DNA of 64,000 nucleotides. It comes from Siphonodentalium dalli (Eukaryota; Mollusca; Scaphopoda; Gadilida; Siphonodentaliidae). Made by a program: the position numbers and the translations under genes. Positions 12,701 through 64,000 of the stretch are shown piece by piece. The notes beneath the pieces are model-generated. The model worked only from the letters and a program-made list of their open reading frames with translations. It searched no databases and was not told the origin of the DNA. The stretch covers positions 5,752,976-5,816,975 of the forward strand of contig CP136069.1 in assembly GCA_032622095.1 (NCBI GenBank). The letters are read 5' to 3'. Each line of letters begins with the position of its first letter. Position 1 is the first letter of the stretch.

Positions 12701-15700
12701 CGCCTTGTATTGCAACTGCAGTAACGATACAGATGTTTTTATTGCCAATTCGTTGTCGCCAATTGTATTAGGGAATTTCATAGGAAATGGTAGATAAAAG
12801 CAGACAGCAGACATATAAAAGGGCAAAAGGAGCCCTATTTATTGAGGGAAATGTTTAGATAAGTTCAACAATGTTTGTTGAACTTATTATGTGAACATTT
12901 CCTATGGGATAACTAATCATCAATGATGCTTTAGTATAGAAAGGGTTAAACTTATTATCTGAACATTTCCTATGGGATAACTACTCACCAATAATGCTTT
13001 AGTATAGAAAGGGATAAACGTATTATTTGAACATTTCCTATGTAATAACTACTCATCAATGATGCTTTAGTATAGAAAGGGTTAAACTTATTATCTGAAC
13101 ATTTCCTATGGGATAACTAATCATCAATGATGCTTTAGTATAGAAAGGGTTAAACTTATTATCTGAACATTTCCTATGGGATAACTAATCATCAATGATG
13201 CTTTAGTATAGAAAGGGTTAAACTTATTATCTGAACACTTCCTATGGGATAACTAATCATCAATGATGCTTCAGTATAGAAAGGGTTAGGTTAAACTTAT
13301 TATCTGATCATTTCCTATGGGATAACTAATCATCAATGATGCTTTAGCATAGAAAGGGTTAAACTTATTATCTGAACATTTCCTATGGGATAACTAATCA
13401 TCAATGATGCTTCAGTATAGAAAGGGTTAGGTTAAACTTATTATCTGAACATTTTCTATGGGATAACAACTCATCAATGGTGCTTTAGGATAGAAAGGTC
13501 TAAACTTATTATCTGAACATTTCCTATGGGATAACTACTCATCTATGATGATTTAGTATTGAAAGGGTTAAACTTATTATCTAAATATTTCCTATAGGTT
13601 AACTACTCATCAATGATGTTTTGAATAAAAAGGTTTAAACTTATTATCTGAATATTTCCTATGGGATAACTACTCATCGATGATACTTTAGTATAGAAAG
13701 TGTTAAACATATTATCTGAACATTTCCTATGTGATAACTAATCATTAATGATGCTTTAGTATAGAGAGGGTTGAACTTATTATCTGAACATTTCCTATGG
13801 GATAACTACTCATCAATGATGCTTTAGTATAGAAAGGGTTAAACTTATTATCTGAACATTTCCTATGGGATAACTAATCATCAATGATGCTTCAGTATAG
13901 AAAGGGTTAAACTTATTATCTGAACATTTCCTATGGGATAACTAGTCATCAATGATGCTTCAGTATAGAAAGGGTTACACTTATTATCTGAACATTTCCT
14001 ATGGGATAACTAGTCATCAATGATACTTTAGTATAGAGAGGGTTAAACCTATTATCTAAGCAGTTACTATGGGATAACTACTCGTCAATGATACTTTAGT
14101 ATAGAAAGGGTTTGACTTATTATCTGAACATTTCCTATGGGATAACTAATCATCAATGATGCTTTAGCATAGAATGGGTTAAACTTATTATCTGAACATT
14201 TCCTATGGGATAACTACTCATCAATGATGCTTTAGTATAGTAAAGGTTAAACTTATTATCTGAACATTTCCTATGGGATAACTACTCATCAATGATGATT
14301 TAGTATAGAAAGGGTTAAACTTATTATCTAAATATTTCCTATAGGTTAACTACTCATCAATGATGTTTTGAATAAAAAGGTTTAAACTTATTATCTGAAT
14401 ATTTCCTATGGGATAACTACTCATCGATGATACTTTAGTATAGAAAGGTCTAAACTTATTATCTGAACATTTCCTATTTGATAACTAATCATTAATGATG
14501 CTTTAGTATAGAGAGGGTTGAACTTATTATCTGAACATTTCCTATGGGATAACTACTCATCAATGATGCTTTAGTATAGAAAGGGTTAAACTTATTATCT
14601 GAACATTTCCTATGTGATAACTAATCATTAATGATGCTTTAGTATAGAGAAGGTTGAACTTATTATCTGAACTTTACCTATGGGATAACTACTCATCAAT
14701 GATGCTTTAGCATAGAAAGGATTAAACTTATTATCTGAACATTTCCTATGTGATAACTAATCTTTAATGATGCTTTAGTATAGAGAGGGTTGAACTTATT
14801 ATCTGAACATTTCCTATGGGATAACTACTCACCAATGATGCTTTAGTATAGAAAGGGTTAAACTTATTATCTGAACATTTCCTATGATAACTAATCATTA
14901 ATGATGCTTTAGTATAGAAAGGGTTAAACTTATTATCTGAACATTTCCTATGTAATAACTACTAATAAATGATTCTTTAGTATAGAAAGGGTTAAACTTA
15001 TTATCTGAACATTTCTTATGGGATAACTAATCGTCAATGATGCTATAGTATAGAAAGGGTTAAACCTATTATCTAAACAGTTCCTATGGGATAACTATTC
15101 ATCAGTGATGCTTTCGAATAAAAAGGTTTAAACTTATTATCTGAATATTTCCTATGGGATAACTATCCATCAATGACGTTTTACTATGGAAAGTGTTAAA
15201 CTTATTATCTGAACCTTATACTATCGGATAACTACTCATCAAAATGATGATTTGGTATAGAGAGTGTTAATTGAATTGTTTTTTTTATTTTCTTTAGAAC
15301 ATGGTTGGTGAATGGCAGCCTGGTGAGGATTGTGAAGTGAAGGAGCTACCTCCAAATAACCCAGTATTAGGACATATTATACAGCGACTCTTCAATTTGG
15401 TTCACCCACCATCGGTAAGTATTAACTAGATAACCCAGTGTAGGGCATATAAAACAGCGACTCTTCAATTTGGTTCGCCCACCATCGGTAGTTATCTGTA
15501 ACATTTTTGTTACATCACTTTGCTCCCATTGCACTGCACAGTACAGCAAGCAAAAATTGGTATCAGATGAGGTCATAATATTTCACTATTATCAGATGTC
15601 TTAATATGTCACTACTATCAGATGTCTTAGTACGTCACTGTTATTGGAGGTCTTAATACATCACTATTATCAGAGTTTTAATACATCACTATCAAACGTC

Positions 15701-18700
15701 TAAGTAACACATCACTATTATCAGAGTCCTAATACGTCACTATTATCAGAGTTTTAATACATCACTATTATCAGAGTTTTAATACATCACTATTATCAGA
15801 GTTTTAATACATCACTATTATCGGACGTCTTAATACATCACATTTATCAGAGATTTAATACATCACTATTATTGGAGTCTTAATGCGTCACTATTATCGG
15901 ACAATTGGAAACAAAGTGTGAGTGGACTTCGATGTATTAAAGGTACTCAATCCGATTCGATGGTCCCCATATCATCAGATTCCAACAACAACAACATTTT
16001 TTGAAATGCTGCTTCAGTTATCAGAATTGATTAATTGATTAATTGATATTTGATCATCGGAGCTTTGATAGGTCGGCTTCTTGACTCGAATCAGATATTT
16101 TTTACCCCGAAGCCAAAGAAATGGTAATTTGGGAGCGTTAATTCAGATTATGCATCTTTCACATATACCGGTATAAGGCATCAAATTAATGGAAAGTATA
16201 GTCAATCAATTTGAAATTAATATTGTTCATATTAGTGTTGCTTTATTATAACAGTCCTTCCCATGAGGAAAAACACAGCAAGTGCATTTATTTGCTCCCG
16301 CAATTCAGAAGACGGGTGCAATATTTATTGCACCCATAATATAATTGTAAGTTGGGTTTTTCTCAAACAAAATGTCATTGTGGGATAGACCTCTGTCCAG
16401 CTACACCCTCATAGGTACAACATTCAAATGAGATATTGAATCAACGATTGCAGTTACCATAAGCATTTTGACAAGAGTGACAAATTTTAGCGACTGTGAA
16501 TTGAAAATTCTGAGTGCATACAGGTGTGAGATTAATCACTCCCATCAAAAAACTTTATTTTGATTTTCAGCCTCCTCCTGTACCACCAGAGTATCCTGCA
16601 TTCCCCATTCGAGCCTGTGTTCTCGGCAAAGTGTTTGGTGGGAAGTCATCATGTGCAAAGAAACTAGCTGCAGGTTTGTGTCTCAATAGATTGCTTATAA
16701 ATTTTGATGATTTTACTGCTAAAGTAATGCCCTAAATAATTGACTCCTTAACCACAGCATAATTATTGGTAACTTTTCCAGATTTAGTCGGAAATATGTC
16801 TTGTTGCCATTCATCAGAAAGCTCTCACTGAGAGCTTTCCGATGAATGGCAACAAGCCATGTGTATTTGTAAATTGCATGTGTATTTATCAATCAACGTA
16901 ACGTTTTTAGTCGAGTTTTTTTCCAAAACTCGACTTATAGTTTGATGGGGGACGGTGGGCGGGCGGGCGGGCGGCGGACGGGCGGGCGGGCGACGTGTTT
17001 TGCTTATAACTCAACTGTTTATTGACGGATTAAAAAAAAATTTGGTGTGTGAGTACATATCCATGCACGTAAGCTGCAGACATAAAAATCGGGTTTGTCC
17101 GCACATTTATTACAGAGTTGTGGCCCTTTGAATTTTCAGCTCGTTAGCGCGATAACTTCAACAAACGTTATCCGATTTGATTGAAATTTGGTATATAGGT
17201 GTCTCCCAATAATATCTCGGATGAGTTCGAAAATCGGCCTGGTCCGATAAAATTTGATAGAGTTATGGCCCTTAATTAGTCATTTTTCACTAATTTTCAG
17301 CTCGTTAGCGCGATAACTTCAACAAACGTTATCCGATTTGATTGAAATTTGGTATATAGGTGTCTCCCAATAATATCTCGGATGAGTTTGAAAACCGGCC
17401 TGGTCCGATAAAATTTGACAGTGTTATGGCCCTTAATTAGTCATTTTTCACGAATTTTCAGCTCGTTAGCGCGATAACTTCAACAAACGTTATCCGATTT
17501 GATTGAAATTTGGTATATAGGTGTCTCCCAATAATATCTCGGATGAGTTTGAAAACCGGCCTGGTCCGATAAAATTTTATAGAGTTATGGCCCTTAATTA
17601 GTCATTTTTCACGAATTTTCAGCTCGTTAGCACGATAACTTCAACAAACGTTATCCGATTTGATTGAAATTTGGTATATAGGTGTCTCCCAAGAATATCT
17701 CGAATGAGTTCGAAAACCGGCCTGGTCCGATAAAATTTGATAGAGTTATGGCCCTTAATTAGTCATTTTTCACGAATTTTCAGCTTGTTAGCGCGATAAC
17801 TTCAACAAACGTTATCCGATTTGATTTTTAAATGTGGTATATAGGTGTCTCCCAAGAATATCTCGGACGAGTTTGAAAACCGGCCTGGTCCGATAAAATT
17901 TGATAGAGTTATGGCCCTTAATTAGTCATTTTTCACGAATTTTCAGCTTGTTAGCGCGATAACTTCAACAAACGTTATCCGATTTGATTTTTAAATGTGG
18001 TATATAGGTGTCTCCTAAGAATATCTCGGTCGAGTTCGAAAACCGGCCAGGTCCGATAAAATTTGATAGAGTTATGGCCCTTAATTAGTCATTTTTTCAT
18101 AAATTTTCAGCTCGTTAGCGATAATTTAACAAACATCATCCTATTTGATTGAAATTTTGATATATAGGTGTCTCCCAAGAATACCTCGGACGAGTTAGAA
18201 AACCGGCCCGGTCCGATAAAATTTGATAGAGTTATGGTTCTTAAGTAGTCATTTTGTACGAATTTTGAGCTCGTTAGCGCGATAACTTCAACAAACGTCA
18301 TCCGATTCAACTAAAATTTGGTATATAAGTGTCTTCCAATAATATCCTGGACGAGCTCGAAAACCAGCCTGGCCCGATAAAATTTGATGGAGCTATGGCC
18401 CTTAATTAGTCCTTTTTCGATTTGACCTATTAATTAGTCTACCGATACTGATGCACACCAATTGGCGGTAATCCACCGAAAACGAGACACAGCATCTCTG
18501 ATGCCACCTCTTGTTTAGCTTTTGAAATCATGGGTTTTTTCTGGGTAGCAAAATGAGCACATCATTGACGAATAATAAGTTGATTGGAAATTTAAATACT
18601 GTCTCATACAGTACATCTGAAAATTTGACAGGCACCATTTTGAAATGACCAACATCATCCATTTGGTGCCTGTCATTTTGACAGTCAGTGAAAAAAACAT

Positions 18701-61308: not shown

Positions 61309-61739
61309 TGTGACCCGCCATTTTTACCCTGTGCCAATGCATTCTCTTATATATGCGAGTCGACCATAGGTCGCCTCGCATATATAAGAGAATGCATTGG
61401 CCTAACAATTTTTTACAATTTTAATAATTTTCTCTTGTATTCTTTAACAATTTTATAATTTCACCCATACAGAGCCCCAGACAAACATGAGCAGACGACA
61501 CTCTTCTATATGCTTCTATATATGTGTGGGGCTCCCTGCAGGGTAATGGATGTTTTTTATTTTATGTCCTAAAAATTGTCAGAAACATTTATTTAAAACA
61601 AATGATAAAAAATTGTTAGGCCAATGCATTCTCTTATATATTTGAGGCGACCTATGGTCGACTCGCATATATAAGAGAATGCATTGGCACAGGGTAAAAA
61701 AATCCCGACTTCCGACTTGATTTGATATGGCGGGTCACA
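61309..61739. mobile_element. TG-1 element with two HM-1 and one HM-2-like hairpin
   Basis: TA|TGTGACCCGCCATTTTTA to TTGATATGGCGGGTCACA|TA. HM-1 at 61333-61401 and 61619-61687, HM-2-like hairpin at 61462-61546. The left end has lost about 25 bp. Confidence 0.92.
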
Positions 61740-61744
61740 TATAT

Positions 61745-62344
61745 TCAGTGGCAGCTCCTTCATGCATAGCAGGAACAGGATTTGCGTGCCCGCCCGAAGG
61801 GCGGCACGAGGACGGTGTGAGCTCACCCGGAGGTCGCCCTTACGCCCTGTCTTGAATCTTCTTGGTCTTTTCTCTTAACAGTCAGGCCGCGGATCGGGTG
61901 GAGAAGTCTTGAGGTCGGGATCGGTCAGCGTCGCAGGTGTCTTGAATCTTGAATCTTGTCTTGTCTTGAATCTTCCATCTTTGCTTGGGCTTTGCCTTGT
62001 ACTTTTGCCTTGATCTTTTTCTTTTTCTTTGCCTTGTCTCGGCATCTTGGAAAATGCGGGACGATCCAGCGATGATGCTGGATTGCGCATTTTCAGTTGG
62101 TTGTCCAAGCCCGGGACCTTCCAATGGAGGCATTGGATTGCGGGCTGTTAAGAGAGTACGGGACGGTCCAGTGATTCCACTGGACTGCGTGCTCTCTTCT
62201 GTTACTGCCCGGGACGGTCCAATACACCTTATTGGACTGCGGGTCTTTTCTGAAGTGGGATACGGGACGGTCTAGCATGGCCTGCTTGACTGCGTATCCT
62301 AAAACCCGGGACGGTCCAATAAGCATATTGAACTGCGGGTCTTT
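61745..62344 (-). mobile_element. LINE 3-prime region (untranslated)
   Basis: On the minus strand, after the stop: six tandem hairpins (62064-62332), then an A/G-rich stretch (AAGGCAAAGAAAAAGAAAAA) and AAGATTCAAGACAAGACAAG-type repeats. It runs close to the end of the TG-1 element, which may be the insertion point. The exact 3-prime end is not certain. Confidence 0.75.
62062..62336 (-). repeat. Six-unit hairpin array in the LINE 3-prime region
   Basis: Units spaced 44-56 bp. Each keeps GGGAC-GG before and CTGCG after a 7-bp stem (plus-strand sense) at 62064-62083, 62120-62137, 62167-62184, 62218-62236, 62271-62289 and 62315-62332. Stems differ between units but stay paired (TCCAGTG/CACTGGA, TCCAATA/TATTGGA, TCCAATG/CATTGGA, ATCCAGC/GCTGGAT; two have one mismatch). 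Loops are 4-6 bases and unrelated. Confidence 0.92.
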
Positions 62345-64000
62345 TCAGCCACAGAGAAGTTGTTTGCGTTGTAAACACTCCCTCATGATGTCACTGCCGT
62401 CCATTCTCGCCAGTGTACTTTCCGCCAGATCGCGCAGGCGCTCTCTGATGGGTTCCACGTCCGCGATGGTATGCAGATCTACAATACGGGTGTGATACGG
62501 TGCTTGCAGTGCCATTCTCAGGGCTTTGTTTTGGACCACCTGGAGCATTTGGATCGCGCGGTATGATGCCAGGTTGGTGACCACCGATGCGTATTCCATG
62601 ATAGGTCTTACAAACGTTTTGAAGACTCTAAGCAGAGTGGCCATGCTAGCTCCCCAGGAAGTTCCCCTCAGCCGTCTGAGAAGATTGACTCGTTGCATGG
62701 TCCTCGTGGCTGTCTGCTTAACATGGGTTAGCATGGTGAGTCTGGAGTCCAAGGTGACGCCTAGGAAGGTCACCTCTTTTGCGGCAACTAAGTCAATGCC
62801 ACTGACATTCAGTTTGACCACCGAATTGCGTTTTCGTTTCGTGAATATGGCGAATTGTGTTTTGTTTGCATTGAGCTTAATGCGCCATTTCGAGCACCAC
62901 CTTTCCAGGTCACCGAGGGCCCGCCTCAGTCTGAGCTCCACATACTTTGTACTGCCATTGGTGATCCACAGACCCAAGTCATCAGCGAACTGCGACAGTT
63001 GCACTTGGTGCCTCGGGTCTATTTCAATGTCATTGACGTAGAAAATATAGAGCAATGGGCTTAGAACCGACCCCTGTGGTGTACCAGTGTTCAGTGGAAC
63101 AGAGTCCGACGATTCTCTGTCCACCCTCACCTTTATTGAGCGGTCGGTGAGGAAAGAGGAGAGAAGCCTTACAAGTTTGACCGGGAGGCCATACTTGTGT
63201 AACTTGTACCGGAGGCCGTTGTGCCAGACGCTGTCGAACGCCTTTTCAACGTCAAGTAGCACTGTACCAGTTACCCAGTTTTTGTGGAAGCCACTGCGTA
63301 TGTCCTCCACAAGGCGGTAGATGTGTTCTACTCCTTCGCATCCGTTTCGGTATGCCCTCTGCCATTTGTTGAAGAATAAATTCTTCTCCAGATGGTTTCG
63401 GAACCGTGATGCAATGATTGCTTCGAATAGCTTGCCGATGCAGCTAAGAAGACTGATTGGTCTATAGTTGCCAGGGTATTTCAGATCTTTGCCATTTTTT
63501 GGTATCATGATGCCGATTGCCTCTTTCCATGCAACTGGAAAGTAACCAATCTTCAGGCAGGTGGTGTACAGCTTGGTAATGTAAGAGAAGAGTTCAGCTG
63601 GAGCTTCTTTGAGTACCCTGTATGGAATTCCATCGTGGCCAGCGGCCGATCTAGACTTGCACTTGGAGAGAATCCCGATGGTTTCTTCCGAAGTGATCTC
63701 TCTAGTGAGATCGTGGTCGTCCCCCACCTCATCACTCACGTTTTCCTGAGGTTTGAATAAGTCCTCATTCAGGCTGACTAGGTTGTCAACTTCCAGTTTC
63801 CAGTCGTCGTCAAATTGAGGGCCAATTTGAACTTGGTGGGCTCGACTGAGTGCGTCTGAAAAAGCGTCCGCTTTTTCCTTTGTGGAGGAAGTTAACGTAC
63901 CGTCAATACGATACACCGGATTCTCAACGTTCCCATTGCTGGGATTTTTTGAGGTGCCAGTCAGGGTTTTGAGCTTTGACCAGAACTCGCGTCCGTTGTT
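62345..64000 (-). CDS. Jockey-like LINE ORF2, reverse transcriptase part, runs off the window
   Basis: The frame is open from the window edge (NNGREFWSKLKTLTGTS) through 551 codons to a TGA at 62345. Reverse-transcriptase blocks in order: YPGNYRPISLLSCIGKLFE, VLLDVEKAFDSVWHNGL, TGTPQGSVLSPLLY, QFADDLGLW (catalytic Asp pair), WRIKLNANKTQ, EVTFLGVTLD. It ends with a helical tail (LQVVQNKALRMALQAPYHTR) typical of Jockey-clade elements. The endonuclease half should lie beyond 64000. No stop or frameshift, and G+C higher than the introns, so the copy is probably young. Opposite orientation to SPEF2. Confidence 0.93.
   Translation of the reverse strand, partial: NNGREFWSKLKTLTGTSKNPSNGNVENPVYRIDGTLTSSTKEKADAFSDALSRAHQVQIGPQFDDDWKLEVDNLVSLNEDLFKPQENVSDEVGDDHDLTREITSEETIGILSKCKSRSAAGHDGIPYRVLKEAPAELFSYITKLYTTCLKIGYFPVAWKEAIGIMIPKNGKDLKYPGNYRPISLLSCIGKLFEAIIASRFRNHLEKNLFFNKWQRAYRNGCEGVEHIYRLVEDIRSGFHKNWVTGTVLLDVEKAFDSVWHNGLRYKLHKYGLPVKLVRLLSSFLTDRSIKVRVDRESSDSVPLNTGTPQGSVLSPLLYIFYVNDIEIDPRHQVQLSQFADDLGLWITNGSTKYVELRLRRALGDLERWCSKWRIKLNANKTQFAIFTKRKRNSVVKLNVSGIDLVAAKEVTFLGVTLDSRLTMLTHVKQTATRTMQRVNLLRRLRGTSWGASMATLLRVFKTFVRPIMEYASVVTNLASYRAIQMLQVVQNKALRMALQAPYHTRIVDLHTIADVEPIRERLRDLAESTLARMDGSDIMRECLQRKQLLCG

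Follow-up and report, generated by a model that had tools for sequence, protein, structure and literature searches.

To our knowledge, it is an open question for most LINEs how their proteins pick out the element RNA from the thousands of RNAs in a cell. The eel element UnaL2 has a 3'-tail stem-loop system comparable to that of the zebrafish L2 elements. In zebrafish ZfL2-1 and ZfL2-2, the 3'-tail stem-loop is bound by ORF2 and, as stated in the abstract, stringent LINEs have such a stem-loop (PMC4176376). A conserved stem-loop in the 3' UTR of human L1 and Alu has been proposed, according to the abstract, for recognition by the reverse transcriptase (RT) (PMC5135761). The R2 protein is described in abstract form as binding both 3' and 5' RNA regions (PMC4117753). 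Finally, the summary of a study of RNA viruses reports multiple dispersed packaging signals (PMC6281560).

We analyzed a window of 64,000 nucleotides (C9:5752976-5816975), by which we mean the whole stretch of DNA under study, from the 2.23 Gb genome of Siphonodentalium dalli, assembled in nine contigs. The 3' part of a LINE occupies the last 2 kb of the window on the minus strand, and its 3' UTR contains six tandem hairpins spaced by about 50 bases. The initial annotation of this DNA had counted the six units correctly; the array extends over 62050-62340, slightly wider than the limits of 62062-62336 given there.

The locus resembles the ZfL2 elements in having stem-loops in the LINE 3' region, and the ZfL2 stem is recognized in a general way according to the abstract. 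However, the ZfL2 stem-loop lies in the 3' tail and its loop is described as read specifically, whereas here six units lie upstream, their loops are free, the joint between two stems is fixed, and more units are present in ORF1. At 281-571 nt upstream of the LINE 3' end (~61769), the array does not correspond to an L2-type hairpin at the very 3' tail. As in R2, both the 3' and the 5' regions of the RNA are concerned; in the R2 abstract these are bound by one protein, whereas here one small hairpin, repeated in tandem at both ends, provides candidate sites at the start of ORF1 and in the 3' UTR. The likeness to viral packaging signals lies in the many dispersed copies of a common motif along one RNA, with variable stems; for the LINE units, a particle or coat protein that binds them is hypothetical. 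Human L1 and Alu share the structured LINE 3' UTR, for which the abstract describes one stem-loop structure. As far as the abstracts go, in none of these systems is a single small hairpin repeated in tandem at the two ends of a LINE. Among the matches listed in searches of the open-access literature, none describes such a two-ended arrangement or covarying hairpins repeated in tandem in the 3' UTR of a LINE.

The LINE copy and its hairpin array

The element is a non-LTR retrotransposon (LINE) of the endonuclease type, with RT and endonuclease domains, a common 3' end, variable 5' truncation and target-site duplications. The window copy contains an RVT_1 domain (Pfam, 4.1e-38) and breaks off on its 5' side some 40 bases outside the window. 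The 3' end is sharp in 30 aligned copies, and the copies vary in their 5' ends. Of 14 copies inspected, one of them without a located 3' end, 7 have target-site duplications of 8-13 bp at the junction. These features bear out the earlier placement of the hairpins in a LINE 3' region. An apurinic-type endonuclease domain (Exo_endo_phos_2, Pfam, 2.3e-20) is found in a longer copy (L104), and no RNase H domain is present among the Pfam matches of the window copy and L104. We take the clade to be CR1/Jockey-like. The R2 enzyme is of a different type from that of this LINE; an R2 element, with a restriction-like endonuclease and an rDNA target, was rejected on the basis of the apurinic-type endonuclease, the target side being judged from the spread of the 40 scored matches over eight of nine contigs.

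Table 1. Coordinates of the LINE features in the window
Feature	Position	Strand	Remark
LINE RT ORF, 3' part	62345..64000	-	551 aa read, runs off window
LINE 3' UTR	61769..62344	-	common 3' end of copies ~61769
Hairpin unit U1, first after stop codon	62304..62340	-	
Hairpin unit U2, A.A mismatch in inner stem	62258..62299	-	
Hairpin unit U3, short outer stem	62207..62244	-	
Hairpin unit U4, longest outer stem	62150..62198	-	
Hairpin unit U5, A.G replacing A.C mismatch	62108..62146	-	
Hairpin unit U6	62050..62094	-	
Separate hairpin near LINE 3' end, candidate 3'-tail recognition hairpin	61786..61807	-	read by eye
Target-site duplication, 8-bp, 3' side of window copy	61761..61768	-	

Given the direction of the ORFs, the natural transcript is the minus strand of the window. 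Wobble pairs give no preference for the sense strand (22 G.U versus 27 A.C cells there). Read in the sense direction, each unit comprises an outer stem of 4-11 pairs that ends in G-C, a joint, and an inner stem of 7-8 pairs, interrupted in U2, capped by a loop of 4-6 bases. The joint is built from a 3-nt UCC bulge in the 3' strand, a single C-G pair and an A that has C or G opposite. Stems and loops vary within the array and the joint is constant.

Each of the six units, folded singly in the sense direction, forms the two-stem hairpin. The fold of the whole array has an energy of -130 kcal/mol in sense (z -7.1) and -150.7 kcal/mol in antisense (z -7.6), and none of 100 shuffles was as stable in either case. 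In the sense fold of the whole array, U1 pairs with U3 around U2 and not locally, the inner stems of U1 and U3 being alike. A model of the six units missed U1 when searched against the window at E <= 1, though it finds U1 in another copy (L005). Two IUPAC patterns that exclude the stem letters yielded no genome-wide match for a hairpin unit with other stems.

No Rfam match reached gathering scores in the window or in six related loci. At E <= 0.1, none was obtained in L103, L104, L118, L120 and L061, and L077 gave 10 rows, all miRNA models over an inverted-repeat insertion and below gathering scores. A palindromic insertion, whose inverted repeats span at least 33 bases (GCCAATGCATTCTC...), is located at ~61327-61695 of the window, about 75 bases from the LINE 3' end. 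The insertion is also present in L077, where it gives the miRNA-model rows, and in L094, in both cases near other LINE copies. Elsewhere in the window there are tandem arrays at 12877-15270 (68-base unit, 35 copies) and 17130-18418 (161-base unit, 8 copies). The start of contig C2 (L100, C2:1-700) carries a tandem repeat of about 26 bases (TAGTTAGTC..GTACGCGTAGTAT) and no simple telomere repeat.

Copies were searched with a 921-base query from the LINE 3' part that spans the array. The 40 copies scored are 94-100% identical to the query and lie on eight of the nine contigs. The initial annotation had named absence of the array from active copies as a refuting result. The array is full-length in 40 of 40 scored copies, the best of 237 candidates, but the query itself contained the array, so that array-less copies would not show. 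Four copies with common flanks (L006, L014, L015, L016) represent one duplicated insertion, and L021 and L022 are probably another. Variants were therefore counted in 36 copies, after removal of L014, L015, L016 and L022; L008 and L009, which have about 250 bases beyond the 3' end in common, were both retained. Separately, a truncated copy is tandemly duplicated at C6:213823865-213833057 (L014, L015, L102) with a 5.3-kb spacing; over 2711 bases the duplicates agree to 99.96%, and they are separated by repeats of about 160 bases.

In these 36 copies, 186 of 292 sites in the 3' array are paired, as are 36 of 60 private variants and 6 of 11 shared variants. Recent variants of the 3' array do not spare paired sites, and shared and private variants do not differ in a low-power test (Fisher P 0.75). 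Unpaired stem changes at the neutral rate had also been put forward as counterevidence; the variants fall on paired and unpaired sites about as expected by chance, a result that neither supports nor refutes the constraint.

Paired changes and the unit inside ORF1

The evidence for pairing comes from comparison of the units with each other and from the ORF1 units, and not from the copies of the 3' array. In a MAFFT alignment of the six window units compared with 500 shuffles, 88.8% of cells are paired (75.0 +/- 2.4 shuffled; 0/500 reach) and 10 of 20 pairs are changed on both sides (6.2 +/- 1.4 shuffled; 4/500 reach). The covariation score is 0.423, compared with 0.217 +/- 0.037 in the shuffles, none of which reaches it, and falls to at most 0.147 when the partner is slid by 1-3 columns. 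The number of further pair types, 13, is not in excess of the shuffles (462/500 reach). All five stem pairs listed in the initial annotation (CAGC/GCTG, AATG/CATT, AGTG/CACT, AATA/TATT and AGCA/TGCT) are found, and its view that the fold rather than the sequence is kept agrees with the paired changes from unit to unit. Beyond what had been noted there, the outer stem covaries as well as the inner stem, and a fixed bulge and mismatch lie between the two. Together with the ORF1 units, these comparisons make a constraint on RNA pairing in the hairpin unit well supported.

Two longer copies were read (L004 with L104, and L005 with L103). In both, ORF1 encodes zinc-knuckle-like cysteines and ORF2 encodes endonuclease and RT. 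ORF2 of L004 is open over 911 codons, and the other frames of the two copies are interrupted. A zf-CCHC_6 match in ORF1 of the L104 piece scores 16.3 bits, below the Pfam cut-off of 22. The model built on the six window units matches the 5' part of ORF1 three times in L104 (E <= 2.9e-7) and three times in L103 (E <= 2.3e-8); these six matches range from 1.3e-12 to 2.9e-7, and a fourth unit in L103 is found at E 0.023. The ORF1 units are about 4.5 kb from the 3' array and follow each other in steps of 50-105 nt, compared with about 50 nt in the 3' UTR.

DNA searches with the ORF1 start gave 33 and 41 matches, with 28 of 28 and 24 of 24 candidates scored, and 22 sequences were compared (20 stretches, L103 and L104). 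Regular expressions locate hairpins a and d in 21 of the 22 each, hairpin c in 20 and hairpin b in 5. Hairpin c of L114 was placed by position, giving 21 aligned sequences for c, and the anchors used for c and d lie on the 5' side alone. Partial duplication of loci is possible for L122/L123 and L103/L126/L127, and identical rows were counted once. The stretch of unit b is present in L103 and L125-L129 and missing in L104 and L111-L124, a difference between copy groups that amounts to an entire unit gained or lost within ORF1. Just before ORF1, the 5' UTR of this LINE (L111-L127) carries two hairpins of a different type in tandem, their stems rich in AATT; one of them has GGCG/CGCC in some subfamilies and GGTG/CACC in others, a compensating change.

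Between subfamilies, one inner pair of hairpin d is U-A or C-G and another is C-G, U.G or U-A, the U.G intermediate occurring in L117. In MAFFT alignments, the covariation score is 0.144 for d (0.084 +/- 0.016 shuffled) and 0.129 for c (0.088 +/- 0.011 shuffled), reached by none of 500 shuffles in either case. Independent paired events are few: both-side changes affect 3 of 15 pairs in each of d and c, as many as in 24 and 30 of 500 shuffles, respectively. Stem changes without compensation also occur, at pair 19-26 of d in 4 of 9 distinct rows and at pair 14-29 of c in 4 of 10. On one side of hairpin d, the paired changes lead to amino acid substitutions (S to P and G to R in the L004 frame), so that what is kept is not the protein sequence. 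Among eight representatives, 368 of 3297 compared sites differ in the columns of units a, c and d (0.112), compared with 1381 of 7059 in the other ORF1-start columns (0.196).

Single folds of the cut stretches, assessed by reading, give the two-stem form in 8 of 10 distinct sequences of a, 7 of 9 of c and 8 of 9 of d; the commonest c sequence does not adopt it when folded alone. For hairpin b, none of 5 is two-stem, and the cut stretches lose the outer stem. A pooled set of 55 sense matches from 23 sources (30 distinct) has 15 of 18 pairs changed on both sides (16/500 shuffles reach) and a score of 0.550, compared with 0.256 +/- 0.017 (0/500 reach), in an alignment that was made to fit the model and that includes five of the six units used to train it. 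Pair types are not clearly more numerous than in the shuffles for c, d or the pooled set.

The joint remains nearly unchanged throughout. On its 3' side, the letters G-UCC are the same in all 21 sequences of hairpin d, and in c the G, the U and the second C are present in 21 of 21 and the first C in 19 of 21. In 38 of 39 distinct units (one divergent L130 sequence excluded), the C-G pair is found in all 38 and the bulge is UCC in 35 and UUC in 3, counts that hold partly by construction, as the anchors contain GCA and GTCC/GTTC. In the same units the A of the joint faces G in 22, C in 14, and U and A in one each. Two described motifs were rejected: a kink-turn, as no tandem G.A pairs follow the bulge, and an MS2-type hairpin, as the loop is not conserved.

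Hairpins in related LINE families

Degenerate RT patterns that exclude the known codons found 23, 114 and 236 places, with 100 listed for each of the latter two. Related loci were taken from the first (23), the second (20 and a further 4) and the third (10). With the RT of the home family, those of L042, L054 and L059 share about 54% identity over about 355 residues. The home unit model matched none of 23 and none of 20 related loci at E <= 10, in a search whose scope did not include L084-L097.

Several of these relatives carry repeats of their own in the 3' UTR. Two units of about 108 bases are found in L054, L067, L047 and L062, two of about 80 bases in L059 and L043, and three of about 59 bases in L075, L077 and L094, while L061 has three repeats with long hairpins. 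By reading, 14 of 40 related stretches contain a structured repeat; 21 have none at the threshold, some being cut by insertions, and the repeats of L066, L069, L078, L088 and L097 are of other or unclear origin. Among L084-L093 a self-repeat is found in 1 of 10 (L088), so that tandem units are not a constant feature.

Covariation is also found among the nine units of L075, L077 and L094, which score 0.183, compared with 0.097 +/- 0.017 in the shuffles (0/500 reach) and 0.136 for the best slid partner. Neither changes on both sides of a pair (244/500 shuffles reach) nor, clearly, pair types are in excess in these nine units. In a search for ORF1 units in these families, six upstream stretches gave no match to the 3' unit of the family concerned, most likely because the copies are 5'-truncated. 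On viral contigs, 30 stretches match a peptide pattern, none of them a relative of the RT, and a DNA pattern match of 15.8 bits (E 0.0068 in 6.4 kb) was taken as chance.

Candidate readers of the hairpin unit

The joint is fixed while both flanking stems drift, pointing to an internal loop that is read by a protein. The location of units at both ends of the element, in coding and non-coding RNA, favors coating or selection of the whole RNA rather than one catalytic positioning event, and the element encodes a knuckle-bearing protein of its own in ORF1. The likeliest reading, in our tentative view, is that the unit is a repeated docking site for the element's ORF1 protein, for selection and compaction of its own RNA. 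The protein would read the joint, and the stems would serve just to present it. ORF1 protein would load in steps set by the spacing of the units, so that the LINE RNA would be selected and compacted into a retrotransposition particle, as with dispersed packaging signals. Comparison supports the pairing constraint; that a protein binds, which protein it is and whether retrotransposition is affected are inferred. The ORF1 protein is the likeliest reader in our ranking, followed by the ORF2 protein, a host protein and, in fourth place, mutation without selection.

That the ORF2 protein (endonuclease/RT) recognizes the units at both RNA ends, choosing the template and positioning the enzyme, appears unlikely, though it has published precedents. 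The hairpin unit does occur at both ends of the LINE, and abstracts describe an R2 protein that binds 3' and 5' RNA (PMC4117753) and an ORF2 that binds a 3' stem-loop (PMC4176376). However, six units exceed what choice of a template would seem to need, and it is another hairpin, not the array, that lies at the 3' end. The initial annotation had suggested the array as a 3'-end recognition site for the RT, which is not supported in that form: the array is distant from the 3' end, a separate hairpin lies close to that end, and the unit also occurs in ORF1. Less likely still is the use of the units by a host protein that binds double strands or hairpins (in export, stability, translation or silencing), or their action as barriers to exonucleases. 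Free loops and variable stems would suit readers of helix shape, but the nearly fixed asymmetric joint argues for specific reading, and a unit that served silencing only would not be expected to persist in successful copies.

Paired changes might also arise mechanically and without selection, if units were duplicated in tandem and one arm was then copied from the other by template switching in reverse transcription or repair. Arm-copying is a known source of paired changes, the array units are clearly related, and the recent 3'-array variants do not spare paired sites. We nevertheless consider this improbable, since arm-copying would erase the one-sided bulge and mismatch, which persist between varying stems. 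Furthermore, the U.G intermediate of L117 has the two sides changing one at a time, and the ORF1 units change less than their surroundings. The hairpins could finally be a by-product of a repeated ORF1 peptide (Q-x-S..G-x-S-x), later copied into the 3' UTR. One reading frame is common to the ORF1 units, but the 3' UTR units lie past the stop codon, where the first four motifs are 44, 53 and 51 bases apart (L006), not all multiples of three, and the paired changes alter amino acids; we regard this origin as very improbable.

More broadly, LINE RNAs of this clade might carry a packaging code, in which one protein-read hairpin is present about ten times (in ORF1 and the 3' UTR) with drifting stems, and in which families have swapped unit types, which would keep them apart and enforce cis preference. 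This wider proposal is speculative, and we consider it doubtful on present evidence. The unit is a ready test object, being short, fixed at its joint, present about ten times and subject to drift that respects pairing. If it is bound, the logic of packaging signals would extend from RNA viruses to retrotransposons. If related families truly use different units, this would suggest how families stay separate in one genome.
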